Source: Oscillibacter sp. ER4 (GTDB lineage Bacteria; Bacillota; Clostridia; Oscillospirales; Oscillospiraceae). From it: a stretch of 35,502 nucleotides of DNA. A model generated the notes under the pieces. It had not been told where the DNA came from, did no database searches, and saw nothing but the letters and a program-made list of their open reading frames with translations. Position numbers and translations under genes: made by a program. Below are positions 2,773 through 27,965 of this stretch, in pieces; positions within the stretch are counted from its first letter, which is position 1, and the number at the start of each line of letters is the position of its first letter. Location of the stretch: positions 1-35,502 of the forward strand of contig NZ_JPJG01000031.1 of the NCBI RefSeq assembly GCF_000765235.1, given 5' to 3'.

Positions 2773-3054
2773 TTAATCTTCGTGTTTTGGCTTTTCCGCG
2801 GCGAACCACATGTTCCACTGGAAGGAGTACGCCCTACGCGACGCCTCGTCCGCGCAAATTAGACGCACGCGCGACGGCTGTGCGTGCTCATAGCCGTAGT
2901 CCATGATGGCGCGCAGGAGGCGGTAGGCGGCCTTCAGGTCGCTGTCTGTGCAGGAGAGGGCCAGCGTGTCGCCGTCCGTGAGCGGCAGAAGTTCGGTCGC
3001 ATGGTCGGAAGAGGGGAGGGCGGAAATGTCCCCGCAGATGATCTCAACGGTCAT
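2773..3054 (-). CDS. Small uncharacterised protein in the 8-oxoguanine deaminase operon
   Basis: 93 residues, ATG with GAGGAGG eight bases upstream. It starts ten bases after the deaminase stop codon, so the two are almost surely cotranscribed. The protein is acidic at the start (VEIICGDISALPSS), followed by LKAAYRLLRAIMDYGYEHA and an Arg/Trp-rich end, with no signal peptide or membrane segment. The opening GDI and the middle AAY...A helix faintly recall the edges of macro domains, but the macro-domain phosphate loops are absent, so I do not assign that family. Function unknown; location hints at purine metabolism. Confidence 0.75.
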   Translation of the reverse strand: MTVEIICGDISALPSSDHATELLPLTDGDTLALSCTDSDLKAAYRLLRAIMDYGYEHAQPSRVRLICADEASRRAYSFQWNMWFAAEKPKHED

Positions 3055-3064
3055 GGCAGCCTCC

Positions 3065-4423
3065 TCAGCGGTTCAGATACGCGCGGCACTTCGCCTCCGC
3101 GTCGTGCGCAAGCTGTTCTTCGTCGACTGTGACAAGATGACCGTGGTCGACCGTCACGCGGCCCTGAACGACTGTGTAGTCAACGGGTCCGCGCACGCCG
3201 ACAGTGCCGAGCACGCTTTTGGGGTCAAAGCACGAGCCGACGAGCTCGAGCCTGCGCGAGTCGATCATGAAGAGGTCGCAGCACTTGCCGACCTCGAGCG
3301 AGCCGATGTCGTCGCTGCGGCCAAGGATGGCCGCGCTGCCGCATGTTGCCATCTTGAGCACGTCGTAACCGCTGGGGGCAGCTTTGCTGCTGTTCAAACG
3401 GTGCAGCAGGAACGCGACGCGCAGTTCCTCCATCAGCGATGAGCCGTCGTTCGAGGCTGAACCGTCAACCGCGAGGCCGACCGGCACGCCGAGCTTCAGC
3501 ATCTCGGGCACGCGGGCGACGCCGGAGGCGAGCTTCATGTTCGAGATCGGGCAGTGCGCCACGCCGGTGTGCGTCTTTGCCAGCACGCGCAGCTCCTCGT
3601 CGTTGAAGTGGATGCCGTGAGCGAACCAGACGTCGCTGCCCGTCCAGCCGAGGCGCTCCATGTACTCGAGCGGGCGGACGCCCTCGCGCGCGAGCATGAA
3701 GTGTTCTTCGTCCTTCGTCTCGCACAGGTGGGTGTGCAGGCGCACGCCGTACTCTCGTGCGAGCACGGCGCTCTCGCGCAGAAGGTCGGCAGACACGGAG
3801 AACGGCGAGCACGGGGCGAGCGCAACGCGGTGCATCGCGCCGAACGACTTGTCGTGGTATTTCTCGATGACACGGGCGGAATCGGCCATGATCTCGTCGA
3901 CCGTCTGCACGACGCTGTCGGGCGGCAGGCCGCCGTCCTTGACAGAGAGGTCCATACTGCCGCGCGAGGCGTACATGCGCGCGCCGATCTCGTCCGACGC
4001 GGCAAACTGCGCGCCAATGAGGTCGCCCGCGCCCGCAGGGAAGACATAGTGATGGTCGAAGCAGGTCGTGCAGCCGTGCTTCATCAGCTCGCCAAGGCCC
4101 GTGAGCGTCGAGAGGCGGATGACGTCCTCGTCGAGGTTTTTCCAGATCTCATAGAGCGTTTTGAGCCAGTCGAAGAGCTCCATGTTCTGTACTTCCGGCA
4201 GGTTGCGGGAAAAGACCTGATAGAGATGATGGTGCGTGTTGACAAGGCCGGGGTAGCAGAGCATGTGGCTCGCGTCAATCACCTTTTCCGCCTCCTGCGG
4301 CAGATTTTTACCGATCGCGCGGATGAATCCATCCTCAGCATACAGATCGACGTTTTCATAAACCGTGTCCGCGTCATCACACGACACCAGCGAACGAATG
4401 TTTTGAATGAGCAGAGTAGACAT
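3065..4423 (-). CDS. 8-oxoguanine deaminase-like amidohydrolase
   Basis: 452 residues from the ATG at 4423 (AGAGG upstream; a longer frame to 4507 has no ribosome site). It is a zinc-type amidohydrolase of the cytosine/guanine deaminase branch: metal motif NTHHHLYQVFSR (about 65-76), HTHLCETKDE (about 230), WFAHGIHFND (about 265) and LAVDGSASNDG (about 315). The segment FSRNLPEVQNMELFDWLKTL and the FDHHYVFP stretch are characteristic of 8-oxoguanine deaminases, which hydrolyse 8-oxoguanine to uric acid and ammonia; s-triazine aminohydrolases are close relatives and an alternative. Cytoplasmic. It lies just downstream of the BMP importer, separated by a terminator, and heads a two-gene operon with the 93-residue protein. 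This makes oxidised guanine or a related purine the likely substrate. Confidence 0.85.
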   Translation of the reverse strand: MSTLLIQNIRSLVSCDDADTVYENVDLYAEDGFIRAIGKNLPQEAEKVIDASHMLCYPGLVNTHHHLYQVFSRNLPEVQNMELFDWLKTLYEIWKNLDEDVIRLSTLTGLGELMKHGCTTCFDHHYVFPAGAGDLIGAQFAASDEIGARMYASRGSMDLSVKDGGLPPDSVVQTVDEIMADSARVIEKYHDKSFGAMHRVALAPCSPFSVSADLLRESAVLAREYGVRLHTHLCETKDEEHFMLAREGVRPLEYMERLGWTGSDVWFAHGIHFNDEELRVLAKTHTGVAHCPISNMKLASGVARVPEMLKLGVPVGLAVDGSASNDGSSLMEELRVAFLLHRLNSSKAAPSGYDVLKMATCGSAAILGRSDDIGSLEVGKCCDLFMIDSRRLELVGSCFDPKSVLGTVGVRGPVDYTVVQGRVTVDHGHLVTVDEEQLAHDAEAKCRAYLNR

Positions 4424-4539
4424 AGCAATACCTCTTAGACCCGCGCCAAACGCAGGCAGATTTAGTGAAAAATAGCAAGAAGCGCATTTTGCTGCCTCCA
4501 GCGGCAAAACAGCTCAAAAGCCTCGCAGAGTTTCACGCC

Positions 4540-4685: not shown

Positions 4686-5669
4686 TTATCTCTCTTCGCG
4701 GAAGTAGCTCAGACCCAGCGATGCGGGCGGCTGAACCTCGCGCTTCTTGCGCAGCGACACGATGATCAGAACGACCAGCGTGACGACGTAGGGGAGCATC
4801 TTGTAGAGCTCCTTGATAGCAAGGTTGGTGCCGGTGGGGATGAAGATATAGAGGATGTAGAACCCGCCGAACAGGATGGAGGCCAGCACGCTGACGTTCG
4901 GACGCCAGATCGTGAAGATGACGAGCGCGATGGCGAGCCAGCCGCGGTCGCCGAAGGCGTTGTTGGACCAGACGCCGCAGGCGTAGTCCATGACGTAATA
5001 CAGACCGCCGAGACCCGCGATCATGCTGCCGATGCAGGTGGCGAGGTATTTGTACTTCGTCACGTTGATGCCGGCTGCGTCCGCCGTCGCCGCGCTCTCG
5101 CCCACGGCGCGCAGGTGAAGACCCGTGCGGGTGTGCTTGAGGAAGTACGACGCGAACAATGCGATGACGATGGCGAGGTAGGCAAGGAAGCCGTAGGACA
5201 GGAAAACCTGACCGAACCAGCCGCCGACATTCAGGGATTTGCTGAAATAGGCGCTCGTCGCGCTCAGCGCGATGGAGGGGACTTCGCTGTCGGTCAGCTT
5301 GATGAGCGAGCCGCCGAAGAAGTTGCCGATGCCGACGCCGAACGTCGTGAGCGCAAGACCCGTGACGTTCTGGTTGGCGCGCAGAGTAACGGTCAGCAGG
5401 CAGTAGAGAAGGCCCATCAGAAGCGAGCCCAAAAGCGAGCAGAGCATCGGGATACCGATGGCGAGGAACGCGTTCATGTCGGCAGCCGGGGTGGACTGCT
5501 CGTAGAAGAACGCGCCGATGACGCCGCAGATACCGCCGACGTACATCACGCCCGGAATGCCGAGGTTCAGGTTGCCGGACTTTTCCGTCAGGATCTCACC
5601 GGTGCTGCCGTAGAGCAGGGGAATGCCCTGCATGACCGCACGGGGAAGGAAAGAAGCAAGATCAAACAT
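4686..5669 (-). CDS. BMP-type ABC importer, second permease subunit (NupQ/YufQ-like)
   Basis: 327 residues, a polytopic membrane protein with about eight to nine hydrophobic segments. It contains the family hallmark GIPLLYGSTGEILTEKSGNL (residues 15-34) and LRAVGESAATADAAGI, the coupling-loop region of the simple-sugar/nucleoside permease family (BPD_transp_2). It starts three bases after the upstream permease stop, so translation is coupled. In B. subtilis the equivalent NupNOPQ system imports purine nucleosides. Together with the BMP lipoprotein and double ATPase it forms a high-affinity nucleoside or nucleobase importer; the neighbouring purine genes favour a purine substrate, by inference. 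Confidence 0.92.
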   Translation of the reverse strand: MFDLASFLPRAVMQGIPLLYGSTGEILTEKSGNLNLGIPGVMYVGGICGVIGAFFYEQSTPAADMNAFLAIGIPMLCSLLGSLLMGLLYCLLTVTLRANQNVTGLALTTFGVGIGNFFGGSLIKLTDSEVPSIALSATSAYFSKSLNVGGWFGQVFLSYGFLAYLAIVIALFASYFLKHTRTGLHLRAVGESAATADAAGINVTKYKYLATCIGSMIAGLGGLYYVMDYACGVWSNNAFGDRGWLAIALVIFTIWRPNVSVLASILFGGFYILYIFIPTGTNLAIKELYKMLPYVVTLVVLIIVSLRKKREVQPPASLGLSYFREER

Positions 5670-5672
5670 CGC

Positions 5673-6764
5673 TCACGCCTCCTTTTTGCCCTTGCGCAGG
5701 CTGACCTTGTAGGTGATGAAGAATTCGCTGCCGATGATGAAGAACAGGATGATGCCCGTCAGGATATCGGCGAAGGAGTGGTTCAGGCCGAACACGCTGG
5801 AGATCTCGCTCGCGCCGCGGCTCAGAACCACGATAAGAAGGCTCGTGAAGATCATCATGATGGGGTTGAACTTGGCCATCCAGGAGACCATGACCGCAGT
5901 GAAGCCGCGTCCGCCGACGATGGTGGTGGTCAGCGTGTGGTCCGTACCGGCGGTGAGCAGCAGGCCGATGAGGCCGCAGATCGCGCCGGAGAGGATCATC
6001 GTGCGCACGATGACGCGCTCTACCTTGATGCCCGCATAGCTCGCGGTGCGCTGGCTCTCACCGACAACGGCGATCTCATAGCCGTGCTTGCTGTAATTGA
6101 GATAGATATACATAACGCCCGTGAGGATCGCCACAAGCAGGATCGGGAGGAGATAGCGCTGGCCGCCGAGAACGGGGAGCCAGCCAGCCTCGGTATTCTG
6201 GTTGATGATACCGATCTTGCCCGAGCCCTTGGGCACTTCCCACACGATGATGAAGAACGCGGCGAGCTGTGTCGCGATGTAGTTCATCATGAGCGTGAAG
6301 AGCGTTTCGTTCGTGTTCCACTTGGCCTTGAAGATACCGGGGAGGAAGCCCCACAGCGCGCCTGCCGCGACGGAGGCGACGATCATAATGACGATGAGAA
6401 GACCGTTGGGAATCTTGCCGCCAAGGCAGATCATGCAGGCCGCGGTGGCAAGGCAGCCGATGAGCACCTGACCCTCGGCACCGATGTTCCAGAAGCGCAT
6501 CTTGAACGCGGGCGTGACCGCGAGCGAGATGCCGAGCAGGATCGCGAGGTTATGGAACGTGACCCAGCTCTTGCGCGACGTACCGAACGCGCCGTAGAGG
6601 ATTGTGGAGTAGACCTTGATGGGATTTTCGCCCGTCAGCAGCGTTGTGACGATCGCGCAGACGATCAAAGCGAGCACGATCGCGCCGCCGCGGATCAAAA
6701 CGGCCTTGTACCAGGGGAGCGTATCGCGCTTGGCGATGTGGAAGAGCGACTGTTTCTTATTCAT
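5673..6764 (-). CDS. BMP-type ABC importer, first permease subunit (NupP/YufP-like)
   Basis: 363 residues with a short cytoplasmic N-terminus and about nine to ten membrane segments. The motifs FWNIGAEGQVLIGCLA (about 92-107), ATQLAAFFIIVWEVPKGSG, and VVGESQRTASYAGI (the cytoplasmic coupling loop) are those of nucleoside/riboflavin-type BMP permeases. The start ATG at 6764 overlaps the end of the ATPase gene by eight bases, indicating translational coupling and a single operon with the ATPase upstream and the second permease downstream. Confidence 0.92.
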   Translation of the reverse strand: MNKKQSLFHIAKRDTLPWYKAVLIRGGAIVLALIVCAIVTTLLTGENPIKVYSTILYGAFGTSRKSWVTFHNLAILLGISLAVTPAFKMRFWNIGAEGQVLIGCLATAACMICLGGKIPNGLLIVIMIVASVAAGALWGFLPGIFKAKWNTNETLFTLMMNYIATQLAAFFIIVWEVPKGSGKIGIINQNTEAGWLPVLGGQRYLLPILLVAILTGVMYIYLNYSKHGYEIAVVGESQRTASYAGIKVERVIVRTMILSGAICGLIGLLLTAGTDHTLTTTIVGGRGFTAVMVSWMAKFNPIMMIFTSLLIVVLSRGASEISSVFGLNHSFADILTGIILFFIIGSEFFITYKVSLRKGKKEA

Positions 6765-8289
6765 CCTTGTTGCCTCCCCTCACGAGCGTCATCAGTGCGC
6801 CGACCTCGCGCTTGTTGGTCTTTCTGGCGTCGACCACGCCGGAGACCTGACCGCCGCAGAGAACGACGATGCGGTCGCACAGCTCAAGCAGCACGTCGAG
6901 GTCTTCGCCGACATAGACGACGGCGACGCCGCGCATCTTCTGCTCTGTCAGCAGGTTGTAAATGGTATAGGAGGTGTTGATGTCCAGGCCACGCACGGCG
7001 TAAGCGGTCATCAGCACGGCGGGGGACTGGGCAATCTCGCGTCCGACAAGCACCTTCTGCACGTTGCCGCCGGACATGCGGCGCACGGGGAAGGACGTGC
7101 TGGGCGTGACGACACCGAGCTCTTCCCAGATGCGGTTAGCGAGCGCTTCGGGATCCTTGCGGTTGAGGAACAGCCCCTTACCCTTGCGCCAGGAGCGCAG
7201 CATCATGTTGCCCGTCATGCCCATCGAGCCGACCAGGCCCATGCCGAGTCGGTCTTCGGGGACGAACGACATCGAAATGCCGCTCTTGCGGATCTTCATC
7301 GGGTCGAGACCGACGAGTTCCTTTTCCTTGCCGCCGTCGGGCGGATAGAACGTGACATGGCCGGAGGCGACGGGGTAGAGGCCCGCAATGGACTCGAGCA
7401 GCTCGCGCTGGCCGCTGCCTGCGACGCCCGCGATGCCGAGCACCTCGCCCGCGTTGATGGTGAAGCTGACGTCATCCAGACGCTTGACGCCAAGCTCGTC
7501 GTAAGCCGTCAGGCCTTCGATGACGAGGCGCTTTTCAACGTCCTTCGGCTCGGGGCGGCTGATGTTCAGGCTCACCGTGTGGCCGACCATCATGTCGGTC
7601 AGCGATTGCTGGTCGGCGTCCTTGGTGGCGACGTCACCGACGTATTCGCCCTTGCGCAGCACGGCCACGCGGTCGGACACGTCGAGCACCTCGTGCAGCT
7701 TGTGCGTGATGATGATGAGGGACTTGCCGTCGGCCTTCATGTTGCGCATGATGGCGAAGAGTTTGTCCGTCTCCTGCGGGGTGAGCACTGCGGTCGGCTC
7801 GTCCAGAATGAGAATGTCCGCCCCGCGGTAGAGCACCTTGACGATCTCGACGGTCTGCTTCTGCGAAACGGACATGTCGTAGATCTTCTGATTGGGGTCG
7901 ATGTCGAACCCGTATTTGTCGCAGATCTCTTTGACCTTTTTGCTGGCTTCGGCAATGTCGAGCTTGCCTTCAAGGCCGAGGATGATATTCTCCGTTGCGG
8001 TGAAAAGATCAACGAGCTTGAAGTGCTGGTGGATCATACCGATGCCGTGTTCGAACGCATCCTTGGGGGAGGCGATCGTGACGGGTTCGCCGTGAATGTA
8101 GATTTGCCCCTCGTCGGGGAAATAGATGCCGGAGAGCATGTTCATCAGCGTCGTCTTGCCGCTGCCGTTTTCGCCGAGCAGCGACAGGATCTCGCCCTCG
8201 TGCAGCTCAAGGTTGATGGCGTTGTTCGCCACCACTTTGCCGAACCGCTTCGTGACATTCTCCATTTTAACTGCGCATGCAGTTCCCAA
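6757..8289 (-). CDS. BMP-type ABC importer, duplicated ATPase (NupO/YufO-like) with unusual second site
   Basis: 510 residues if started at the TTG at 8289, which has AAAGGGG eight bases upstream. A GTG at 8298 is immediately next to that site and an ATG at 8265 has none. Domain 1 is complete: Walker A GENGSGKTTL, Q-loop, signature MSVSQKQTVEI, Walker B ILILDEPTAVLTPQE. Domain 2 has a degenerate P-loop (GVAGSGQRELLE), signature MSGGNVQKV, and AVLMTAYAVRGLD where relatives have a PTRGLD Walker B end, followed by VGEDLDVLLELCDRI. Sugar/nucleoside-type double ATPases often have one weak site, so this is a variant and not a broken gene. It energises the two permeases encoded just downstream. Confidence 0.9.
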   Translation of the reverse strand: MGTACAVKMENVTKRFGKVVANNAINLELHEGEILSLLGENGSGKTTLMNMLSGIYFPDEGQIYIHGEPVTIASPKDAFEHGIGMIHQHFKLVDLFTATENIILGLEGKLDIAEASKKVKEICDKYGFDIDPNQKIYDMSVSQKQTVEIVKVLYRGADILILDEPTAVLTPQETDKLFAIMRNMKADGKSLIIITHKLHEVLDVSDRVAVLRKGEYVGDVATKDADQQSLTDMMVGHTVSLNISRPEPKDVEKRLVIEGLTAYDELGVKRLDDVSFTINAGEVLGIAGVAGSGQRELLESIAGLYPVASGHVTFYPPDGGKEKELVGLDPMKIRKSGISMSFVPEDRLGMGLVGSMGMTGNMMLRSWRKGKGLFLNRKDPEALANRIWEELGVVTPSTSFPVRRMSGGNVQKVLVGREIAQSPAVLMTAYAVRGLDINTSYTIYNLLTEQKMRGVAVVYVGEDLDVLLELCDRIVVLCGGQVSGVVDARKTNKREVGALMTLVRGGNKDE

Positions 8290-8359
8290 GGCGGTCACCC
8301 CTTTTTCCGCTGGAGGGCACAGGAAGAAAGCCCCGCAGCATTGTATTTGTACAAGTCAT

Positions 8360-8522: not shown

Positions 8523-9743
8523 TTAGAACGCCTGGTCGAGCAGCGTGATGCCGTCGATCTGGAGCTGGAAGTACGGGGCGGAGCGGAAAGTGGACTCGGC
8601 AAAATAGCCGTCCACGATGGCCTCGGTATCAGGCGTGTAGTCGGCATCGGTGTCGACGTCGGCCATGGAGGAGGTCAAGGTCTGGCCGTCCACGGTGAAG
8701 GTGGAGCAGTCGAAGACATGGAGCTCACCGCTCTCGAGCTTGGCGGTCGCGTCGGCGATGGCTTCAGCGGTACCCTCGGCGGCAACATTCTCGTTCAGGT
8801 CGGTCAGCACGACGGAGCCGGTAGCGAGGGTGCCGGTCCAGTCGGCGTCGATGGCGTCGCCGTTCATGGCAGCCTTGATGGCGTACTCATAGTAGGGGGC
8901 CCAGTCGATGCGGGAGGAGATCAGATAGGTGTTGGGGCAGGCGGCCTCGGTGGAACCGTTGTAGGAAACGTCGGGGACACCGGCGGTCTCGCAAGCGGTG
9001 GGAGCGCCCATGGAGTCGGCGTGCTGGCTGATGAGCTTGCAGCCGTTCTGGATGAGCTTCTGCGCGCCTTCCTTCTCGGCGGTCTCGTCATACCAGCTGC
9101 CGGTGAAGGTGACTTCCATCGTGGCAGTGGGGCAGACGGAGCGAGCGCCCAGGAAGAAGGAGGTGTAGCCGGAGATAACCTCGGCATAGGTGAAGGCGCC
9201 GACGTAGCCGATCTTGGCATCGTCCGCGGAGAACTCACCGTTGGCGATCATCTCGTTGAGCTTCATACCGGCAGCAACACCGGCGAGGAAACGGCCCTCA
9301 TAGATGGAAGCGAAGGCGTTGTGGTAGTTGCTCAGACCCTCGGTGTGCGCCTTGGTGCCGGTGGAGTGGCAGAACTGCACGTCGGGGAAGTCCTTCGCGG
9401 CCTGGATCATGTAGTCTTCGTGACCGAAAGAGTCGGCGAAGATGATGTTGCAGCCAGCGTCGGCGAGCTCAGCGGCCTTGTCGTAGCACTCCTGACCTTC
9501 GGGAACGTTGGTCACGATGGTGTACTCGACGCCGAGCGTCTCGCAGGCCTCTTTCGCAGCGTTGATGAAGTTGAGGTCGTAGGTGGAGTTTTCGTCGTGG
9601 AGCATGATGAAGCCGACCTTGAAATCGGCAGCATCGGTGTTGTCCTGGGTGTCGCCGTTGTTGGAGTCGTCCGTCTTATCGCCGCAGGCGACAAGGGCGA
9701 GAACCATCACGAGACTCAGGAGCAGTGCAAGGAACTTCTTCAT
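8523..9743 (-). CDS. BMP-family (PnrA-like) nucleoside-binding lipoprotein
   Basis: 406 residues; ATG preceded by AAGGAGG. It has a lipoprotein signal, MKKFLALLLSLVMVLALVAC, with lipidated Cys at 20, then a Asp/Asn/Thr-rich linker. The mature domain begins near residue 42 (KVGFIMLHDENSTYDLNF) and shows the BMP-family features: IIFADSFGHEDYMIQAAKDFP and FASIYEGRFLAGVAAGMKL. The family comprises surface-bound purine nucleoside receptors such as PnrA and the NupN-type proteins; some members bind other ligands. Its separate strong promoter and terminator would give more receptor than transporter, as is usual. Ligand assignment to a purine comes from family and neighbourhood. Confidence 0.92.
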   Translation of the reverse strand: MKKFLALLLSLVMVLALVACGDKTDDSNNGDTQDNTDAADFKVGFIMLHDENSTYDLNFINAAKEACETLGVEYTIVTNVPEGQECYDKAAELADAGCNIIFADSFGHEDYMIQAAKDFPDVQFCHSTGTKAHTEGLSNYHNAFASIYEGRFLAGVAAGMKLNEMIANGEFSADDAKIGYVGAFTYAEVISGYTSFFLGARSVCPTATMEVTFTGSWYDETAEKEGAQKLIQNGCKLISQHADSMGAPTACETAGVPDVSYNGSTEAACPNTYLISSRIDWAPYYEYAIKAAMNGDAIDADWTGTLATGSVVLTDLNENVAAEGTAEAIADATAKLESGELHVFDCSTFTVDGQTLTSSMADVDTDADYTPDTEAIVDGYFAESTFRSAPYFQLQIDGITLLDQAF

Positions 9744-12346: not shown

Positions 12347-12383
12347 AATATCAAATGACGGGCGAAGCACGTTATTTGATATT
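12347..12383. repeat. 14-bp inverted repeat overlapping the ygeY stop codon
   Basis: AATATCAAATGACG (12347-12360) pairs with CGTTATTTGATATT (12370-12383) across a nine-base loop; the right arm includes the last codons and stop of ygeY. There is no T-run on the minus strand after the stem. It may be a 3'-end mRNA stabiliser. Confidence 0.5.
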
Positions 12384-13769: not shown

Positions 13770-13838
13770 GGTAAAACCTCCGTTAAAAGTAATAGTATTT
13801 TCTGTCGATCGGGGTCAATTTTCTGTTACACTGTCTTT

Positions 13839-13866
13839 ATCATAGCATAAGAACAGCAGTTGTCAA
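13839..13866 (-). promoter_or_regulatory. Strong promoter of ygeY
   Basis: Read on the minus strand: -35 TTGACA (13861-13866), 16-base spacer, extended -10 TGcTATGAT with the hexamer at 13839-13844, giving a leader of about 60 bases. It is back-to-back with the regulator promoter; the 40 bases between the two -35 boxes are A/T-tract DNA suited to a shared regulator. Confidence 0.8.
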
Positions 13867-13933: not shown

Positions 13934-13949
13934 AGGGATGAAAGAACAT

Positions 13950-18148: not shown

Positions 18149-18160
18149 GAGAGAACAGAA

Positions 18161-18195
18161 AAGAGGAGCGCGGACCGTTGGCCCGCGCTCCTCTT
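18161..18195. terminator. Hairpin between convergent genes
   Basis: AAGAGGAGCGCGG (18161-18173) pairs perfectly with CCGCGCTCCTCTT (18183-18195). There is no long T-run on either side, but it sits exactly between the convergent threonine synthase-like gene and the acyltransferase gene, so it probably ends both transcripts. Confidence 0.6.
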
Positions 18196-18199
18196 GCGC

Positions 18200-19258: not shown

Positions 19259-19260
19259 AC

Positions 19261-19754: not shown

Positions 19755-21137
19755 TCACAGTGCGCATTTGCCGCGCTTCAAGTATTCGCCCATCTTGCCG
19801 CCGACGACCTTGCCGCCGTCCACCTGCAGCTGACCGCGCAGGTAGACCTTCGACACGCCGCCATTCGTGCGGAAGCCCTCGAACGGCGTGTAGCCCGCCT
19901 TGGAGAGCATGTCCGCGCCGTGGAGCACGTGGCTCGCGCCGGGATCGTAGACGACGATGTCGGCGTCGCTGCCCGCAGCGATGACGCCCTTGCGGGGGTA
20001 GAGACCGTAGAGCTTGGCGGGATTTTCGCTCAGCGCGCGGCAGACGCCGCCGAGCGAGAGCTTGTTTTCATTGATGGCCACAGTGTAGACGACCTCGCCA
20101 CGCGTTTCGACGCCGGGAAGACCGCCGGGGATCTTCGTAAAGTCGTCGCGGCCCATGTCCTTCTGCTCGAGCGTGAACGAGCAGTGGTCGGTCGAGATGG
20201 TCTGCACCTCGCCGCGGCGCAGCGCCTTCCAGAGCGCTTCACTGTCCTCCTGCGAGCGGATGGGCGGCGCGCAGACGTAGCGCGCGGCGGAGGAAAAGTC
20301 GGGATCGTAGTAAACGCCGTCGTCGAGCGCCAAATACTGCGGGCAGGTCTCGACATACACGGTCTGTCCGCGGCGGCGCGCCGCGGCGATCTCGTCAAGA
20401 GAAGCACGGTTCGTCGTGTGGACGATGATGACGGGCGCCTCGGCCGCCTGCGCGATGCGCAGCAGACGTGAAACAGCCTCGGCCTCTAAATAGTCGGGGC
20501 GGGAGATCGGGTGCGATACGACGTCCGCGCCCAAACCGCTCGCCTTGAGTTCGGCGATGCGCGCGTCGATGACGCCCGCGTTCTCACAGTGGACGCCCGC
20601 GATGCCGCCGCGGGCCTTGAGCGCTTTCAGCGCGCGGTAGACCGCGCCGTCGCCGATCATCATGGCGGGGTAGGTGAGGTACATCTTGAAAGACGTGATA
20701 CCGGCGTCGAACATCGCGTCGAGCTCAGACTCGATGCTCTCGTTCCAGTCGTCGATGGTCATATGGAAGCCGTAGTCGCAGTAGCACTTGCCGTCGGCCT
20801 TTTTATGCCAGAGATCAAGCCCATAGGCAAGGGATTCCCCTTTATTGGGGCAGGCAAAGTCGATGACCGTCGTCGTGCCGCCGCGGATGGCGCTTTTGCT
20901 GCCGCTTTCAAAGTCGTCGGCCGTCGTGGTGCTGCACACATCGAGATCGAAGTGCGTGTGCGCGTCGATAAAGCCGGGGAAGAGCATGCAGCCCGTCACA
21001 TCGACGACCTCGCTCTGCGCGGCGAGCTCGGGCGGAATGTGGCCAAGCATTTCGACCTTTTCCCCGTCGATGAGCACGTCGGCGCGGCGGCAGCCGCGGC
21101 CGCTGACGACATAGCCGCCTCGAAGCAGTGTTTTCAT
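19755..21137 (-). CDS. hyuA: Hydantoinase/dihydropyrimidinase-family cyclic amidohydrolase
   Basis: 460 residues from the ATG at 21137, which has AAAGGAGGG; the frame is open further upstream without a ribosome site. Metal ligands follow the D-hydantoinase plan: GFIDAHTHFDLD (His-X-His, about 58), the carboxylated Lys in GITSFKMYLTY (about 148), GVHCENAGVID (about 181), VIIVHTTNR (about 236) and ISTDHCSFTLEQKD with the final Asp (about 312). Family members open cyclic ureides such as dihydropyrimidines, hydantoins and allantoin. The E. coli homologue HyuA (phenylhydantoinase) is in the ygeW-ygeY cluster, so a cyclic ureide from purine breakdown is the expected substrate. It heads an operon with a membrane protein and an acyltransferase. 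Confidence 0.92.
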   Translation of the reverse strand: MKTLLRGGYVVSGRGCRRADVLIDGEKVEMLGHIPPELAAQSEVVDVTGCMLFPGFIDAHTHFDLDVCSTTTADDFESGSKSAIRGGTTTVIDFACPNKGESLAYGLDLWHKKADGKCYCDYGFHMTIDDWNESIESELDAMFDAGITSFKMYLTYPAMMIGDGAVYRALKALKARGGIAGVHCENAGVIDARIAELKASGLGADVVSHPISRPDYLEAEAVSRLLRIAQAAEAPVIIVHTTNRASLDEIAAARRRGQTVYVETCPQYLALDDGVYYDPDFSSAARYVCAPPIRSQEDSEALWKALRRGEVQTISTDHCSFTLEQKDMGRDDFTKIPGGLPGVETRGEVVYTVAINENKLSLGGVCRALSENPAKLYGLYPRKGVIAAGSDADIVVYDPGASHVLHGADMLSKAGYTPFEGFRTNGGVSKVYLRGQLQVDGGKVVGGKMGEYLKRGKCAL

Positions 21138-21211
21138 GGAAGAACCCTCCTTTGAAAAAATACCGTTCCAAATTAGCAAAAGCATAGCATACTTTTTACC
21201 TGATTTCCATA

Positions 21212-21230
21212 GAGTTTGGAAAAAATGTGA
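21212..21230. promoter_or_regulatory. Inverted repeat upstream of the hydantoinase gene
   Basis: TTCCA and TGGAA face each other across a seven-base centre (TTCCATAGAGTTTGGAA on the plus strand) in the AT-rich spacer between hyuA and the divergent nucleotidase gene. It could be an operator. The hyuA promoter itself is not clear; a TATGCT box near 21185-21192 on the minus strand lacks a good -35. Confidence 0.3.
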
Positions 21231-21272
21231 GAAGCGCCAAGATTTTTGCCGCAAATTCGGAACAATGCCGTA

Positions 21273-21444: not shown

Positions 21445-23538
21445 ATGCGCAAGTTCCTATCCGTCCTGCTCGCAATGGCGATGGTTCTCAGCCTGACTGT
21501 GACCAGCTTTGCGGCGGACACCGCCGCTGATGCGAAAGCCGAGATGGCGGGCAAGACTGTCATTCTGCATACGAATGACGTGCACGGTGCGGTCGAGGGC
21601 TATGCCTACATCGCACAGCTCAAGGCCGACTATGAGGCCAAGGGAGCCGAGGTCATCCTCGTCGACGCCGGCGACTTCAGCCAGGGCACGACCTATGTCA
21701 GCTCCACCAAGGGCGCTGATGCGGTCACGATGATGAATGCCGCGGGCTACGACGTCGTCACCCTCGGCAACCACGAGTTCGACTACGGCTATGCCCAGCT
21801 CAAGGAAAACATGAGCAAGGCCAAGTTCAAGGTCGTCTGCGCGGACGTCTTCAATGAGGACGGCACCCCCATCTTCGACGCGAGCTACACCTACACCACC
21901 AAGTCCGGTGTGAAGGTCGGCTTCTTCGGCATGGAGACCCCCGAGACCCAGACCAAGGCCAACCCCGCGCTCATCAAGGGCCTGACCTTCGCTGACAAGG
22001 ACGCCTTCACCAAGGCTGCCGCCGATCAGGTCGCGGCGCTCAAGGATGCGGATGTTGTCATCTGCCTTGCGCATCTGGGCGTTGACGCAGAGTCCGCTCC
22101 TTACCGCTCCACCGATCTCTACGCCGCCGTCAAGGGCATTGACTTCATCATCGACGGCCACTCCCACACCGTGATGACCAAGGGCGAGAAGGGCGAGCCC
22201 ATCCAGTCCACCGGCACCGCGTTCAAGAACATCGGCGTGATCGTCATCGATGACGCCAGCAAGAAGATCGAGAGCAACTCCCTTTACGAGATCAAGGAAG
22301 ACACCGCCAAGGACGCGACCGTTGCCGCGGCGGCAAAGGTCATTGTTGACCGTGTCAACAATGAATACGGTGTCAAGTTCGCCACCAGCAAGGTCGAACT
22401 CAACGGCGCGAAGGCCCCCAACGGCAACCGCGACGTGGAGACCAACAACGGCGACCTCATCACCGACGCGATGCGCTGGAAGGTCTTGCAGAACAAGGAC
22501 GGCCTGACCGTGAATGAAGACCATGTGGTCGCCATCACCAACGGCGGCGGCATCCGTGCGGCGATCGCCAAGGGCGATGTGACCAAGAAGGACATCAACA
22601 CCGTTCTGCCGTTCGGCAACACGGTCGCGGTCGTCTATGTCACGGGCGAGCAGCTGCTCGAAGCGCTCGAGGCTTCTACCTTCAGCACCCCGACGGCGGT
22701 CGGCGGCTTCCCGCAGGTTTCCGGCATCAACTTCACCATCCACACTGGCAAGGCGTATGACAAGAACGACACCACCTATCCCGAATCCACCTACTATGGC
22801 CCCAAGACCATCAACCGCGTGGTCATCAACAGCGTCAACGGCAAGGAATTCAAGGCCAATGAGGTCTACGCCGTTGTGACGAACAACTTCTGCGCCGCCG
22901 GCGGCGACACCTACTATGCCTTTAAGGCCGCTTCCGCCCAGTTCGACACCGGTATTCCTCTGGACGAGGCTGTGATGGAGTATGTGACCAAGGAGCTCAA
23001 GGGCGTGATCGGTGAGCAGTATGCCGCGCCTCAGGGCCGCATTTCCTACTTCAATCCCTTCAAGGATGTGAAGACCACCTCCTGGTACTTCAACTACATG
23101 ATCCATCTCTATGAGGCTGGCGTGATCTCCGGCACCTCCGCCACCACCTACACGCCCGACGCCAAGCTGTCCTGGGCGGCCGCGCTCAAGCTCCTGCTTG
23201 TCAGCCACGGCGATCTCAAGGCTGCGGACGCCACCGGCGCCGACTGGAGCAAGAACGTCATCGCCAAGGCTGCGGAGCTCGGCCTCGTTGCTGCGGACCT
23301 CGACGGCACGAAGGCCATCTCCCGCCTCGAGTTCTGCCAGGTCGCTGCCAAGCTCAACAAGCTTGCCGAGTCCAAGACCGAGAGCAAGTTCACCGACTGC
23401 ACCGACGGTTACGTGATGGCGCTCGTCGACGCGAAGGTCATCGACGGTATGACCGCTACCACCTTCGAGCCTGCCGCGTCCCTGACCCGCGCGCAGATCG
23501 CCAAGATCATCTATCAGCTGAACCTGATCGAGAAGTAA
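21445..23538 (+). CDS. Secreted SLH-anchored 5'-nucleotidase/metallophosphatase
   Basis: 697 residues; ATG with GAGGAGG. A signal peptide (residues 1-24, MRKFLSVLLAMAMVLSLTVT... ending at Ala) is followed by a calcineurin-like metallophosphatase domain: ILHTNDVHGAVE (about 38), DAGDFSQG, LGNHEFDYG (about 106) and IDGHSHT (about 234). The 5'-nucleotidase C-terminal domain has NGGGIRAAI (about 365) and NNFCAAGGDTYYAF (about 479). About residues 535-695 hold three SLH-type repeats (FKDV..WYFNYMIHLYEAGVISG and FEPAASLTRAQIAKI), which attach proteins to the cell wall. The enzyme strips phosphate from nucleotides outside the cell, yielding nucleosides that the BMP importer could take up. Monocistronic, divergent from hyuA. 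Some relatives act on UDP-sugars or cyclic nucleotides. Confidence 0.92.
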   Translation: MRKFLSVLLAMAMVLSLTVTSFAADTAADAKAEMAGKTVILHTNDVHGAVEGYAYIAQLKADYEAKGAEVILVDAGDFSQGTTYVSSTKGADAVTMMNAAGYDVVTLGNHEFDYGYAQLKENMSKAKFKVVCADVFNEDGTPIFDASYTYTTKSGVKVGFFGMETPETQTKANPALIKGLTFADKDAFTKAAADQVAALKDADVVICLAHLGVDAESAPYRSTDLYAAVKGIDFIIDGHSHTVMTKGEKGEPIQSTGTAFKNIGVIVIDDASKKIESNSLYEIKEDTAKDATVAAAAKVIVDRVNNEYGVKFATSKVELNGAKAPNGNRDVETNNGDLITDAMRWKVLQNKDGLTVNEDHVVAITNGGGIRAAIAKGDVTKKDINTVLPFGNTVAVVYVTGEQLLEALEASTFSTPTAVGGFPQVSGINFTIHTGKAYDKNDTTYPESTYYGPKTINRVVINSVNGKEFKANEVYAVVTNNFCAAGGDTYYAFKAASAQFDTGIPLDEAVMEYVTKELKGVIGEQYAAPQGRISYFNPFKDVKTTSWYFNYMIHLYEAGVISGTSATTYTPDAKLSWAAALKLLLVSHGDLKAADATGADWSKNVIAKAAELGLVAADLDGTKAISRLEFCQVAAKLNKLAESKTESKFTDCTDGYVMALVDAKVIDGMTATTFEPAASLTRAQIAKIIYQLNLIEK

Positions 23539-23649: not shown

Positions 23650-26601
23650 TTACAGGTAGAGGTAGCTGTACTTATCGCGCACGGTGAGGATGAGCGCCTC
23701 CAGCTCGACGGGAAGATCGTTGTCGCAGGAGGCCAAGTCGTATTCCTTCACGCCGTCCTCGTAGCGCAGGCGGACCATATCGTCGTCCTCGAAGAGCACG
23801 CCGTAGTTTTCGCTCTCGTCCATGTCCTCCTTCGTCTGGAAGAGGGTAAATTTGTCGTGGCAGGGTTCGCTGGCATAGGGGCAGAACTGCGTGCAGTTGC
23901 CGCATTCGTTGCACATCTTGTCGACATGGACGATCTCGTGTGAGCCGTCGGCCATCTTGATGACGACATTCGCGCGGTTCGGGCAGGAATCGACGCAGTT
24001 TTCACACACGGTGGAGCACTGTAAGCAGCGCTCGCCGTCGCAGACACACTTACTGGCCATCGAGAGGATACCCTTCTTGGCCTGCGCGTCGAACTCGGTC
24101 ACATCGGCCTCGGCAGGGATGTCGTAGATGTGCGGGTGACCGACGACGATCTCGGCAAAGCGCGCGGCGTCAGCAATGCCCTCGACCACGGTGGCGGGGC
24201 CGCGGTGCGCGTCGCCCGCGCAGTACACGCCGGGGATGTTTGTCTCGAACGCGGGACCCTTGCGCTCCATCTCGATGCCGTTTGCAGCCATCAGCTCAGC
24301 GTCGACCTGCTCGCCCACGGCGGAGATGACCATGTCGCAGGGGATGGTGAACTGCTCGCCGGATTTGACGGGGCTGCGGCGGCCGCTCTCATCCGGCTCG
24401 CCGAGGATCATCTTATCGCACAGGAGCTTGCCGCGGCTCTGTTTGACGGGCGCGGCCAGCTCGACGAATTCGACGCCCTCGTCGATGGCGAGCTGTAACT
24501 CGTGCTCGTCGGCGGGCATGAATTTCTTCGTGCGGCGGTAGAGAATGGTCGCATGCGCACCCATGCGCTTTGCAACGCGCGCGGCGTCCATGGCGGTGTT
24601 ACCCGCGCCGACAACGACGATGTTGCCGCTCAGGCAGGGCTTGACCTGCTTTTTCATGCGCTTCATCCACTCGATGACGCCCTGCACGTTGCCTTCAATG
24701 TCGAGCTTGCCGGGCTTCCACGCGCCGGTGGCCATCAGGATGTGCGTGTAGCCCATCTTCTTGAGCTGTTCGACGGACGGAGCAGGCTTGCCGAGCTTGA
24801 CCTCGACGCCGTAGCGCTCCATGAGCGCGACGTCCTTGTCGATGGCCTCGTCGCTGATGCGGAAGGCGGGGATGACGTAGCGCGGCACGCCGCCGAGCTT
24901 GCGCTCGCGCTCGAAGATCGTGGTGGGAACACCCTCGCGGCCAAGGAAGTACGCCGCGGCGATACCGGTCGGGCCGCCGCCGACGATGGCAACCTTTTTA
25001 TCCTCGACCGGCTCAGGCATACGGAGGGAGGCCATCAAGGTGTTGTAGCCCTTTTCCGCGGCAAGAAGCTTCGTCTCGCGGATGTGGACGGATTCCTCAT
25101 AGAAGTTGCGCGAGCACTTGCCCTGGCAGCGGTGCGCGCAGATGGTGCCGGTGATAAACGGCAGGGCGTTCTTCTCGGTGATGAGCTTCAGTGCTGGGCC
25201 GTAGAGCCCCTTGCGGCAGAGCTCAAGGTATTCGGGAATGTCCTGCTCGATGGGGCAGCTGCCCTTGCAGGGCGCGGTAAAGCAGTCGAGCAGCGGCACC
25301 TGTTCATCTTTTTTGCGCGAGGGGAGCGGCTTGATTGCCTTGAGGTGGTGGAAGTCGTGCAGCGCGGAGGCGGCAAGGTCGGAGATCGCGGCGGGGTCGT
25401 TGCCGGAAAATGCGCGGTAGGGCATATCCTTGACCTTTTCGACCATCTGGTGCAGGCGGTTGTAGCCGCCGGGCTTCAAGATGGTGGTGGCGACGGTGAT
25501 GGGCCAGATGCCGGCGGCAAAAAGCTTGTCACAGTTGAAGTAGTCCGCGCCGCCTGCGAACGAAATGCGCATCTTGCCGCCAAACTGGCGGGAGATGCGA
25601 TTGCACATCTCGATCGTCAGTGGGAAGAGGCTGCGGCCGGACATATACATTTCCTCGTTGGGCAGCTCGCCGCGCGTCGTGTCGACGGGGAAGGTGTTGG
25701 AGAGCTTGAGGCCGAACTCGAGGTCCTGCTTGTCCGCAAGCTTTTGCAGCCGCTCGAACATCGGCACGGCGTCCTCCCACTGGAGGTCCTCGTTGAAGTG
25801 GTGCTCATCGAAGACGATGTAGTCATAGCCCATGGAATCGAGGATGCTGCGCGCGGTCTTGTAGCCGAGAATGGTCGGGTTGCACTTGACGAAGGTGTGC
25901 AGATGCTTTTCCTTGAGAAGATAGCTTGCGATGCGCTCAATCTCCTGCGGCGGGCAGCCGTGGAGCGTGGAGAGCGTAACAGAGCGGGAAACATTGGGGG
26001 AGATCGAGGCGATGAAGTCCTTTTCCTCGGGGAAGAGCTCGGTCAGGACTTTTTTACATTCCTTGAACTGCGCGGTCTTGCCCGCGTCCATCATGTTGTT
26101 GATATAGGTGTTGACCTTGCGGCCCTTGATGCCGTCCAGGTCGTAGCCGACGGACATATTGAACACGAACCCGTCGGGATCGCCGAAGCCGTAGACCTTG
26201 CTCATGATCTTGAGCGCGCACCAGGCCTTGATGTACTCGTCCTGCGCCTGCTGCACGGTCAGCTCGGTCGACCACTCCTGATTGTAGCCCTCGTCAGCGG
26301 CGAGGATACAGGGGCGGGGAACACAGGCGGCAAGCTCCGCGCCGTCCATTTTCTGCACGGTCTTGACCTCGAAAAAGCGCGCGCCGGCGGCATAGGCCGC
26401 GATGATATTCTGCGCAAGCTGGCTGTTGGGGCCGGCGGCGGGGCCAAACGGTGTTTCGATGCGCTCGCCGAAGATCGGCAGGCTCTTGCCGCTTGCGTGA
26501 TAGTGCTTATGAACGCCGAACACATCGCCGCACTGCGCGTATTCGCTCGTCACCCAGTTCATCAGAGAGTCGAACGGAATGGGATACATTTTTTCAGACA
26601 T
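23650..26601 (-). CDS. ygfK: YgfK-type flavin/iron-sulfur oxidoreductase (putative selenate reductase subunit)
   Basis: 983 residues from the ATG at 26601, chosen for GGGAGG eight bases upstream. Domain order: an N-terminal dihydroorotate-dehydrogenase-like barrel (about 1-400; FFEVKTVQKMDGAEL, MSVGYDLDGIKG); a Cys-rich linker of the glutamate synthase small-subunit type (CFTAPCKGSCPIEQDIPEYL near 437, then CAHRCQGKCSRN); FAD-binding VAIVGGGPTGIAAAYFLG (about 537); NAD(P)-binding VVVGAGNTAMDAARVA (about 661); and a C-terminal ferredoxin-like domain with Cys clusters near 850 and 895. E. coli YgfK has the same plan and accompanies ssnA and xanthine-dehydrogenase-like genes. It probably shuttles electrons for reductive or oxidative steps on a purine-derived ring; the exact reaction is unproven. 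It is 20 bases downstream of ssnA. Confidence 0.93.
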   Translation of the reverse strand: MSEKMYPIPFDSLMNWVTSEYAQCGDVFGVHKHYHASGKSLPIFGERIETPFGPAAGPNSQLAQNIIAAYAAGARFFEVKTVQKMDGAELAACVPRPCILAADEGYNQEWSTELTVQQAQDEYIKAWCALKIMSKVYGFGDPDGFVFNMSVGYDLDGIKGRKVNTYINNMMDAGKTAQFKECKKVLTELFPEEKDFIASISPNVSRSVTLSTLHGCPPQEIERIASYLLKEKHLHTFVKCNPTILGYKTARSILDSMGYDYIVFDEHHFNEDLQWEDAVPMFERLQKLADKQDLEFGLKLSNTFPVDTTRGELPNEEMYMSGRSLFPLTIEMCNRISRQFGGKMRISFAGGADYFNCDKLFAAGIWPITVATTILKPGGYNRLHQMVEKVKDMPYRAFSGNDPAAISDLAASALHDFHHLKAIKPLPSRKKDEQVPLLDCFTAPCKGSCPIEQDIPEYLELCRKGLYGPALKLITEKNALPFITGTICAHRCQGKCSRNFYEESVHIRETKLLAAEKGYNTLMASLRMPEPVEDKKVAIVGGGPTGIAAAYFLGREGVPTTIFERERKLGGVPRYVIPAFRISDEAIDKDVALMERYGVEVKLGKPAPSVEQLKKMGYTHILMATGAWKPGKLDIEGNVQGVIEWMKRMKKQVKPCLSGNIVVVGAGNTAMDAARVAKRMGAHATILYRRTKKFMPADEHELQLAIDEGVEFVELAAPVKQSRGKLLCDKMILGEPDESGRRSPVKSGEQFTIPCDMVISAVGEQVDAELMAANGIEMERKGPAFETNIPGVYCAGDAHRGPATVVEGIADAARFAEIVVGHPHIYDIPAEADVTEFDAQAKKGILSMASKCVCDGERCLQCSTVCENCVDSCPNRANVVIKMADGSHEIVHVDKMCNECGNCTQFCPYASEPCHDKFTLFQTKEDMDESENYGVLFEDDDMVRLRYEDGVKEYDLASCDNDLPVELEALILTVRDKYSYLYL

Positions 26602-26621
26602 TGTTTTTTCCTCCCGCTTGC

Positions 26622-27965
26622 TTAATAGGTTCTGTGATTCAGCTCGCCCCAAAGCTTCTTTGCCGCCTCAAGAATGTGCGCATTTTCGGCTTCTTCGTCG
26701 ATGCCGACGAGCTCGCGGTCGAGCATGAGGGTCTTGCCGGCGGCGATGGTGGTTTGGCACTGGCGGCCCGTCATGCCGAAGATCATGTGGCCGTCGATAT
26801 TCTCGTCGGAGAACGGGGTGAACGGCTTATAGTCCATGACGATGATGTCCGCTGCCGCGCCGGGCTTCAGCACGCCGAGCGTGTCGGGGAAGTATTTTTC
26901 ACCGATCTTCGCGTTATTCTTGAAGAGCATGTCCGTGACCTCGCACCAGCCGACGTTCGGCAGGCAGTTCTGGCTGCGCTGGGAGCAGAGGGCGACCTTG
27001 AGGGACTCGAGCATATCGTTCGTGTAGGCGTCTGTGCCCATGCCGAGAAGAATGCCGCGCTTGTGGAGTTGGAGGACGGGGCAGATGCCGATGGCGTTGC
27101 CCATGTTGGATTCCGGATTGTTCACGACCATCGTGCCGGTCTCCTTGATGATCTCCATTTCGGCGGTGTTGACGTGGATGCAGTGGCCGAGGATGGTCTT
27201 GGGACCGAGAATGCCGAGATCCTGCAAGCGCTGGACGGGGCGGCGGCCATAGTTCTGGAGGGAGTCGTACACATCGTTCATGCCCTCGGACACGTGGATG
27301 TGATAGCCCGTGCGGCCGTTGTTGGCCGCGACCATGCGGTCGAAGGTCTTATCGGAGATCGTGAACAGCGCGTGGCCGCCGAACATTGCCGCGAGCATCG
27401 GGTCCTTATTCTTTTCGCATTCGGTGATAAAATCGGCGTTCTCCTGAATGGCCTGTAAGCACTTCTCCTCGCCGTTGCGGTCTGAGACCTCATAGCATAG
27501 GCAGGAGCGAAGGCCCAGGCGCTTGCTCTCCTCGGCAATCGTGTGGAGCGTGCCGGGGATCTCACCGTAAGAGGCGTGATGGTCGAAGATCGTCGTCACG
27601 CCCTGCTTGATGGAGTCCATGTACAGCGCGGTGGCGGACGCCCTTGTGCCGTCCATCATCAGATGGCGGTCGATGGCCCACCATGTGCCGTCAAGGACTT
27701 CATAGAAGTTCGTCGGGTTGTTGCCGACGATGGAAAGGCCGCGGGCGAGGGCGGAGTAGATGTGCGTGTGCGCGTTGATGAACGCGGGCATGATGACACC
27801 GCCTTTGGCGTCGATGATCTCGGCGTCGGGATACTTGGCGCGAAGCATCGCTTCCTCGCCTACTTCGACGATCTTCGTGCCTTCAAAGGCGACGGCGCCG
27901 TGCTCATAATAGCCCTGTGCATCTGCGTTGCGGGTGATGAGACGACCGTTGGTGACAAGTTTCAT
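26622..27965 (-). CDS. ssnA: SsnA-type amidohydrolase/deaminase
   Basis: 447 residues from the ATG at 27965 (AAGGAGGAG upstream). A zinc amidohydrolase of the cytosine/guanine deaminase superfamily: FINAHTHIYSALARGLSI (about 60), YHIHVSEGMNDVYDS (about 220), LGHCIHVN (about 255) and GMGTDAYTNDM (about 315). The length equals E. coli SsnA, a protein of unknown substrate that always travels with YgfK. Relatives deaminate aminopurines or hydrolyse amino-substituted rings. It forms a two-gene operon with ygfK. The RGLSIVGNNPTNFYEVL stretch resembles the SsnA family more than guanine deaminase proper, so I keep the SsnA name. Confidence 0.92.
   Translation of the reverse strand: MKLVTNGRLITRNADAQGYYEHGAVAFEGTKIVEVGEEAMLRAKYPDAEIIDAKGGVIMPAFINAHTHIYSALARGLSIVGNNPTNFYEVLDGTWWAIDRHLMMDGTRASATALYMDSIKQGVTTIFDHHASYGEIPGTLHTIAEESKRLGLRSCLCYEVSDRNGEEKCLQAIQENADFITECEKNKDPMLAAMFGGHALFTISDKTFDRMVAANNGRTGYHIHVSEGMNDVYDSLQNYGRRPVQRLQDLGILGPKTILGHCIHVNTAEMEIIKETGTMVVNNPESNMGNAIGICPVLQLHKRGILLGMGTDAYTNDMLESLKVALCSQRSQNCLPNVGWCEVTDMLFKNNAKIGEKYFPDTLGVLKPGAAADIIVMDYKPFTPFSDENIDGHMIFGMTGRQCQTTIAAGKTLMLDRELVGIDEEAENAHILEAAKKLWGELNHRTY

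Follow-up and report, generated by a model that had tools for sequence, protein, structure and literature searches.

An Oscillospiraceae reductive urate island in which two pyridoxal-phosphate proteins are candidate replacements for YgeX

We analyzed a 35,502-nucleotide (nt) stretch of DNA from Oscillibacter sp. ER4 (contig NZ_JPJG01000031.1; here, the window), which is a single contig of a draft genome of 2.73 Mb in 130 contigs (98% complete). A preliminary description had interpreted positions 2773 to 27965 as an island for anaerobic purine catabolism. Every gene that it named occurs in this interval, most of them above curated NCBIfam cut-offs, and the genes are spread over several divergent transcription units on both strands. 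The reductive urate pathway, reconstituted in 2025, has eight enzymes, of which six are encoded here, all on the minus strand: the yanthine reductase YgfK (23650 to 26652; TIGR03315, 1271 bits, cut-off 835), the aminohydrolase SsnA (26622 to 27965; 597 bits, cut-off 444, with NF005540 and TIGR03314 both above cut-off), the hydantoinase HyuA (19755 to 21254; TIGR02033, 522 bits, cut-off 393), the carbamoyltransferase YgeW (10978 to 12171; TIGR03316, 762 bits, cut-off 500), the carbamate kinase ArcC (9961 to 10896; TIGR00746, 382 bits, cut-off 358), and the M20-family ureido hydrolase YgeY (12372 to 13769; NF009555, 594 bits, cut-off 321). The plus strand carries two genes for pyridoxal-phosphate (PLP) proteins, on which the preliminary description was silent, as it was on the ssnA RNA discussed below. 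One encodes PALP493, a cysteine-synthase-like fold-type-II PLP protein without a family name (14669 to 16150), and the other encodes a PLP protein resembling threonine synthase (ThrC-like; 16904 to 18148).

According to the accessible text of Li et al. 2025 (PMC12507026), the route was rebuilt with purified Escherichia coli and Clostridioides difficile enzymes. XdhD converts urate to yanthine, YgfK and SsnA lead to ureidomethyl-hydantoin, and HyuA gives diureidopropionate; YgeW and a carbamate kinase follow in the cluster, YgeY yields diaminopropionate, and YgeX yields pyruvate. A commentary (PMC12990295) reports parallel work in Clostridium sporogenes and names the stereochemistry of the ureido intermediates as an open issue. 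Because the enzyme route has been published in these two papers, the earlier description of the enzymes downstream of urate as poorly defined has been overtaken. The island is a member of this known kind of system: it encodes YgfK with SsnA, HyuA, YgeW with a carbamate kinase, and YgeY. Its assignment to purine and urate catabolism was right and is supported by co-inheritance, YgeY and YgfK co-occurring in 36 of 150 genomes of the family. A complete route, as had been suggested, is not contained in the window, since the candidate for the urate-to-yanthine step lies on another contig and no YgeX was detected genome-wide.

At the first of these two ends, no urate reductase of the xanthine dehydrogenase (XDH) type was found among the open reading frames (ORFs) scanned in the window. 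Contig C58 of the same genome encodes both a TIGR03311 protein (1240 bits, cut-off 830) and an XdhA protein (NF043082, 1183 bits, cut-off 780), with about 2 kb between them. Because TIGR03311 proteins also occur within the urate runs of two other loci (L127 and L300), the TIGR03311 protein is the better urate-reductase candidate of the two, and we regard it as a candidate for the first enzyme of the pathway. At the other end, the genome yielded nothing with TIGR03528, the YgeX family, at E ≤ 1e-30, and neither YgeX nor any other lyase candidate was found among the ORFs scanned in the window.

One set of 150 genomes of the family was used for all searches, and YgeX was counted at E ≤ 1e-30 against TIGR03528. 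YgfK matched in 58 genomes at E ≤ 1e-100; 15 of these match the reductase half only and were dropped, and the 43 counted comprise 41 above the cut-off plus partial matches in G076 and G103. The ThrC-like protein matched in 38 genomes, of which G005 and G123 were dropped (30 to 31% identity). The resulting counts are 43 genomes for YgfK, 39 for YgeY, 36 for PALP493, 36 for the ThrC-like protein, and 33 for YgeX (26 above cut-off). PALP493 and YgfK occur together in 32 genomes (Fisher p 5e-19), the ThrC-like protein and YgfK in 33 (p 6e-21), and PALP493 and the ThrC-like protein in 33 (p 3e-26), where the p values do not represent independent draws because the genomes are related. The 36 genomes with both YgfK and YgeY (here, pathway genomes) include 19 with YgeX, 29 with PALP493, 14 with both, and 2 with neither. 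Seventeen pathway genomes lack YgeX, and 15 of them have both PALP493 and the ThrC-like protein. The other two are G103 (68% complete), where, of the pair, a partial ThrC-like match interrupted by a stop codon was all that was found, and G123 (81% complete), which has none of the three. Either YgeX or the ThrC-like protein is thus present in 35 of the 36 pathway genomes, if G103 is counted via its partial match. These figures bear on the simplest alternative, namely that this is the plain known pathway and that YgeX was missed owing to the draft assembly. The fragmentation of the genome leaves some room for it, but YgeX is likewise absent at the same threshold from a 100%-complete genome of the same genus (G080), and the PLP pair recurs in those 15 of 17 YgeX-less pathway genomes, so that we consider a missed YgeX very improbable.

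Among 34 YgeY loci, the window included, YgeX is adjacent to YgeY in 14, PALP493 in 15, both in 1 (G008), and neither in 6 (Fisher p 0.0004); 11 of the 15 loci with PALP493 adjacent belong to genomes without any YgeX. The 34 loci omit two of the 36 pathway genomes (G052 and G123), and in G052 PALP493 is less than 1 kb from YgeY by coordinates. For G125, G138, and G031, longer flanks of YgeY were in view because these loci had been fetched around PALP493. Genes of the XDH type are also found nearby: XdhA adjoins a PALP493-ThrC-like-HyuA run in G074, and in five further genomes (G078, G133, G019, G045, and G054) a match to the XDH molybdenum domain lies 1.4 to 2.7 kb from PALP493.

In an independent sample of 291 genomes of the class, YgeY was counted at E ≤ 1e-130 and is present in 18 genomes, including that of the host. 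Ten of the 17 others have YgeX only and seven have the ThrC-like protein only (50 to 58% identity), while none has both and none has neither. Seven ThrC matches of 39 to 41% identity were not taken as ThrC-like; in G293, the only match (40%) was taken as a true threonine synthase. PALP relatives in this sample are known from the fetched stretches alone. In six of the seven ThrC-like genomes, YgeY and the ThrC-like gene share a strand and lie close together, and the gene run also includes a PALP relative (62 to 63% identity in G425, G257, and G229; 32 to 38% in G243, G415, and G315). The seventh genome, G280, has the ThrC-like and YgeY genes on separate contigs, with no PALP relative in the two stretches fetched. 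In YgeX genomes fetched for contrast, YgeX adjoins YgeY (G179 and G411) or is separated from it by two genes (G238), and no PALP493 was seen in the fetched stretches of these three.

The G243 run (locus L298) contains, in order, genes for an SsnA-like protein (344 bits, cut-off 444), a protein resembling dihydroorotate dehydrogenase (below cut-off), an XDH-like protein (22% identity to XdhD by BLAST), an adenine deaminase (above cut-off), the ThrC-like protein, the PALP relative, YgeY, an OTC-type carbamoyltransferase (below cut-off), and ArcC, with two small ORFs also in the run. Pfam PF01180 is presumably the dihydroorotate dehydrogenase family. The run looks like the PLP module set within the other, C. 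difficile-type variant of the pathway. UacX, the C. difficile substitute for YgfK, is assigned to PF01180 in the accessible part of PMC12507026.

The ThrC-like protein scores above two threonine synthase cut-offs (NF006050, 328 bits versus 303; TIGR00260, 221 versus 167) and matches Pfam PF00291 at 248 bits. Its structure model has a predicted local distance difference test score (pLDDT) of 90, and the top fold matches are class II threonine synthases; identity to four solved enzymes of that class (2zsj, 6cgq, 1uim, and 2d1f) is 35 to 39%. The threonine synthase profile is thus matched, but the signature residues are not those of the enzyme. Three stretches common to the four solved enzymes are altered, STGNT to STGNA, NSVNP.R.EGQKT to NAAINPYLSEGKKT, and VGNAGNI to VGDGCTI; we take residues within these stretches to be those that hold the substrate phosphate. 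A138, A205, L210, K214, D239, G240, C241, and T242 are present in all 26 ThrC-like sequences (window included), S211 is present in 20 of 26, and the Arg of NP.R.EGQKT is Leu in all 26. Six more distant members also keep A138, A205, K214, D239, G240, and C241. A second ThrC is encoded on contig C26 of the same genome (494 amino acids; TIGR00260, 239 bits, above cut-off). On sequence grounds, the ThrC-like protein is a dedicated paralogue, because of this second ThrC and because all 26 sequences depart from the signature. Its profile match to YgeX has an E value of 6.8e-8 over 259 columns, and TIGR03528 is not among the best 25 of 38 families that it matches. The active sites of the PLP proteins were compared by sequence alone; the residue aligned with Asp120 of YgeX is Thr in both PALP493 and the ThrC-like protein.

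PALP493 does not match the cysteine synthase (CysK) profile at its cut-off. It scores far below the cut-offs of all five cysK-type families that it matches (TIGR01139, 70 versus 351 bits), TIGR03528 is not among these five, and its Pfam PALP match is also below the gathering score (27.8 versus 35). An AlphaFold2 model from 50 sequences (pLDDT 87, predicted template modeling score 0.90) has cysteine synthase and cystathionine beta-synthase as its nearest solved folds, and diaminopropionate lyase is absent among the best 50 of its 1,316 structure matches. It might be supposed that both proteins are ordinary enzymes, a threonine synthase (ThrC-like) and a cysteine synthase (PALP493), and are in the island by chance, in keeping with the above-cut-off NCBIfam match (328 versus 303 bits) and with the folds. 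The second ThrC of the genome, the changed signature in 26 of 26 sequences, the scores of PALP493 against the five families, and the finding that 33 of 36 ThrC-like genomes and 32 of 36 PALP493 genomes are YgfK genomes all argue against this, and we consider it most unlikely. A role of the many conserved Cys residues of PALP493 in Fe-S or metal binding was rejected, as the relatives in L298, L301, and L302 retain just one Cys of the window protein, C279. Selenium delivery was also considered as a conceivable role of the pair.

From the gene content, the absence of YgeX, the dedicated paralogue, co-inheritance, and gene position, we infer a substrate, a reaction, and a division of labor as follows. 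The island would be the Oscillospiraceae version of the reductive urate pathway, in which the ThrC-like protein and PALP493 replace YgeX from diaminopropionate on, a reading to which we assign a probability of roughly 60%. Urate would pass via yanthine, dihydro-yanthine, and ureidomethyl-hydantoin to diureidopropionate, which would be converted via albizziin or its isomer to 2,3-diaminopropionate and then pyruvate, with ATP gained from carbamoyl phosphate via ArcC. Because albizziin and diaminopropionate are the sole alpha-amino acids of the published route as we read it, one of the two should be the substrate of PLP enzymes encoded next to YgeY. Our best guess is that the ThrC-like protein would be the ammonia-lyase acting on diaminopropionate. 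It is the better lyase candidate of the pair because YgeX or the ThrC-like protein is present in 35 of 36 pathway genomes of the family and 17 of 17 YgeY genomes of the class, because of its match to the YgeX profile, which extends over most of the chain, and also because it has lost the threonine synthase signature residues. PALP493, again as a best guess, would prepare or invert the substrate, for example by racemization. If HyuA is a D-selective hydantoinase, its product would be D-configured, and PALP493 may, by conjecture, be a racemase for it or a first-step enzyme.

Several observations weigh against this replacement of YgeX. (i) Fourteen of the 36 pathway genomes hold YgeX together with PALP493, and 13 hold YgeX together with the ThrC-like protein. 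YgeX and PALP493 are not anticorrelated among the 36, in which 2 lack both and about 3.3 would be expected to do so under independence. Where YgeX adjoins YgeY (14 genomes), PALP493 is also found in nine (elsewhere in eight, alongside in G008), and PALP493 appears to be dispensable in five pathway genomes because YgeX is present there without it. (ii) In the class sample, the seven genomes with a ThrC-like protein come from two families only (f25 and f43), and the ten with YgeX come from five; the Fisher p value of 5e-5 for their alternation is therefore too small, as it treats the genomes as more independent than they are. The ThrC-like protein also occurs in an eighth genome, G268, where YgeY is absent at the threshold and the ThrC-like match reaches the contig end. 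YgeX has other uses, since 18 of the 28 YgeX genomes in the class sample have no YgeY. (iii) PALP493 is a more distant relative of YgeX than the ThrC-like protein is (E 4.5e-4 over 151 columns), and we know of no activity for either protein. (iv) YgeX-type genes flank 6 of 100 PALP493 loci (L127, L210, L219, L228, L235, and L257; only the member in L219 was scanned), PALP493 lies beside YgeX without a ThrC-like gene in G008 (by genome search) and in L219 (by locus), and in Lachnospiraceae PALP493 loci lead into serC, serA-like, and DUF1015 genes.

The 100 loci are 20 from the family and 80 of about 590 database stretches, with at least four counted twice (G036/L186, G080/L197, G064/L198, and G031/L236). 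Clustering placed serC-type genes in nine of them and serA-type and DUF1015-type genes in seven each, where only members from L219 and L235 were scanned; these neighbors hint at another substrate, such as phosphoserine. Genes of the three types lie 3' of PALP493 in L219, L228, and L235, and also in L211 and L212, and L219 has a second ygeX-type gene beyond them. The idea that PALP493 by itself is a one-for-one substitute for YgeX is weakened by the six loci with YgeX-type genes near PALP493, and the ThrC-like protein fits that part better.

Alternatively, the pair may add a separate job, acting on albizziin or assimilating phosphoserine or diaminopropionate into an amino acid such as serine or cysteine, with an unrecognized lyase in the genomes where YgeX is missing. 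The 14 pathway genomes with both YgeX and PALP493, the serC, serA-like, and DUF1015 neighbors in Lachnospiraceae, and the nearest solved folds of PALP493, which are beta-replacement enzymes, would fit such a function. Against it stand the strict alternation of the ThrC-like protein and YgeX in all 17 class genomes with YgeY, the proximity of the ThrC-like gene to YgeY in six of seven, and the lack of another lyase candidate among the window ORFs scanned. We thus hold an added job to be possible but rather unlikely, and prefer the replacement of YgeX by the pair. Among the openly licensed papers listed for this topic, we found none that names a YgeX substitute.

The ssnA gene is preceded by a copy of the ssnA RNA motif, an orphan cis-regulatory RNA as far as we are aware (28073 to 28120, minus strand; RF03031, 56.2 bits, gathering score 37.3). 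A predicted terminator hairpin with a U-run (28034 to 28101, minus strand; -49.5 kcal/mol) absorbs the motif core, and the leader (28031 to 28140) has a minimum free energy of -53.4 with a z score of -6.7 against 200 shuffles. For SsnA, the most likely start is the ATG at 27965; the listed ORF extends to 28016. A 6S RNA gene (28237 to 28437, minus strand; 70.1 bits) is directly upstream of the leader. The motif is above cut-off in 31 of the 150 family genomes, all of which have YgfK, and it lies 44 to 239 nt upstream of ssnA in all 30 loci fetched. In 28 of these 30, a terminator of -10 kcal/mol or lower is located between motif and gene, compared with 21 of 120 dinucleotide shuffles. Hairpin and motif core overlap in six of the 30, one of which (L085) is a long fold with a separate terminator also found there. 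The window leader, as modeled, would be an attenuator of the riboswitch type, in which the folded motif would allow read-through and the unfolded motif would lead to termination. Xanthine and uric acid riboswitches are known and belong to a different RNA family. The ssnA motif was reportedly first described by Weinberg and others in 2017; no paper on it was found among the openly licensed ones listed. Because the reaction of the ssnA product is now known, the ligand of the RNA becomes testable. A bolder reading would join these elements in an undescribed two-enzyme ending: a ThrC-like lyase and a PALP493 that inverts or rearranges a D-ureido amino acid, with carbon possibly sent to phosphoserine and glycolysis instead of straight to pyruvate, and an ssnA RNA that is a riboswitch for urate, yanthine, or a close derivative and turns the pathway on. 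We regard this combination as speculative and doubtful.

Between the divergent YgeY and YheO genes there are promoter-like sites at 13866 to 13839 (minus strand, 11 of 12 consensus matches) and 13906 to 13933 (plus strand, 9 of 12); this consensus scan gave five sites in 13700 to 18300 versus 1.2 in shuffles. The YheO/DauR-type regulator (14024 to 14665, plus strand; PAS_6, YheO-like, and HTH_22 above cut-off) probably starts at an ATA codon at 14024, behind a strong Shine-Dalgarno sequence, since its frame is closed just upstream with no canonical start before the ATA; the next listed start is a GTG at 14099. Non-AUG YheO starts with a strong Shine-Dalgarno sequence and no upstream canonical start are also seen in four more genomes, with ATC in L117/L197 and L234 and ACG in L194 and L202. 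Such starts are possible in L206, L207 (ACG), and L230 (ATC), yet canonical starts lie upstream there, and other relatives start with ATG, GTG, or TTG. A non-AUG start may keep the regulator level low or link it to initiation-factor control. PALP493 begins 3 nt past the YheO stop. Locus L121/L236 (G031) has an additional gene between those for YgeY and YheO, on the opposite strand, which encodes a distant M20 protein 30% identical to YgeY. In the window, 753 nt (16150 to 16904) separate PALP493 from the ThrC-like gene, with near-perfect palindromes at 16202 to 16234, 16305 to 16346, and 16769 to 16808; small inserted elements are likely there because of these palindromes, and the same genes are less than 100 nt apart in L195. 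Whether the island is rearranged, as the preliminary description had it, depends on the reference: its order (YgeY divergent, YheO on the same strand, ThrC-like gene downstream) is shown by 44 of the 100 PALP493 loci. Oscillibacter ruminantium GH1 (L194) shares this divergent unit including YheO, and O. valericigenes Sjm18-20 (L196) has it with no YheO call. Separation of the genes in relatives, which had been named as a point that would speak against the island, is found in part, as the two halves lie far apart on a single contig of G125, at 571 kb (YgfK) and 1188 kb (YgeY).

Among the remaining genes of the island, an 8-oxoguanine deaminase of the amidohydrolase type (3065 to 4507, minus strand; NF006055, 574 bits, cut-off 532) shares its strand with an ABC importer with two permeases (4686 to 5669 and 5673 to 6764; both PF02653, BPD_transp_2), an ATPase (6757 to 8298; PF00005 in two stretches), and a BMP/PnrA-like substrate-binding protein (8523 to 9743; Bmp, PF02608), relatives of which flank 36 of the 100 PALP493 loci. 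A secreted-type 5'-nucleotidase with two SLH stretches is encoded at 21445 to 23538 on the plus strand (Metallophos PF00149, 5_nucleotid_C PF02872, and SLH PF00395). Roles of the importer in purine import and of the 5'-nucleotidase in the island are plausible. Genes for an acyltransferase and a small membrane protein (18200 to 19746, minus strand) break up the set. A 93-codon ORF without a Pfam match (2773 to 3054, minus strand) lies 3' of the deaminase gene, and an IS110-type transposase gene at 31710 to 32839 (minus strand) is split over two frames (DEDD_Tnp_IS110 and Transposase_20 pieces) and apparently broken.

Taken together, the pathway is known and the island is confirmed, with what appears to be a new variant at the last step. 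The label "threonine synthase" on the ThrC-like protein is probably a mislabel. Urate-degrading capacity in the gut is read from marker genes that include YgeX, and 17 of the 36 family genomes with YgfK and YgeY have the rest apparently in place with no YgeX found. A survey based on Pfam PF00291, by which YgeX is marked in a figure legend in the accessible part of PMC12507026, cannot separate YgeX from the ThrC-like protein, because the latter also matches PF00291. If the pair cleaves diaminopropionate, the threonine synthase label is wrong and the last step has its own chemistry and stereochemistry.

The E. coli MG1655 cluster for reductive urate degradation, as given in the accessible text of PMC12507026, consists of ygeW-ygeX-ygeY-hyuA-yqeA and ygfK-ssnA-ygfM-xdhD. 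It has YgfK, SsnA, HyuA, YgeW, a carbamate kinase, and YgeY in common with the window, whereas in our genome YgeX was not found and XDH is encoded elsewhere. The BMP-type ABC importer, the YheO-type regulator, PALP493, the ThrC-like protein, and the ssnA RNA leader are additions of the window. C. difficile has UacX in place of YgfK and UacY in place of YgeW/YqeA, so that single steps are swapped there, as proposed here; these swaps concern yanthine reduction and 2-ureido cleavage, with no YgeX replacement named in the accessible part of that paper, whereas the swap in the window would concern the last step. YgeX (TIGR03528; PDB 4d9g and 5ygr) resembles the window pair in being a PALP-family PLP chain and in its place beside YgeY, but TIGR03528 matches neither of the two proteins at E ≤ 1e-30. 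With class II threonine synthases, the ThrC-like protein shares the fold and differs at the three signature stretches. Finally, the ssnA RNA of the window is typical of RF03031 in being located directly upstream of ssnA, and what the window copy adds to the family is a core that overlaps a predicted terminator.

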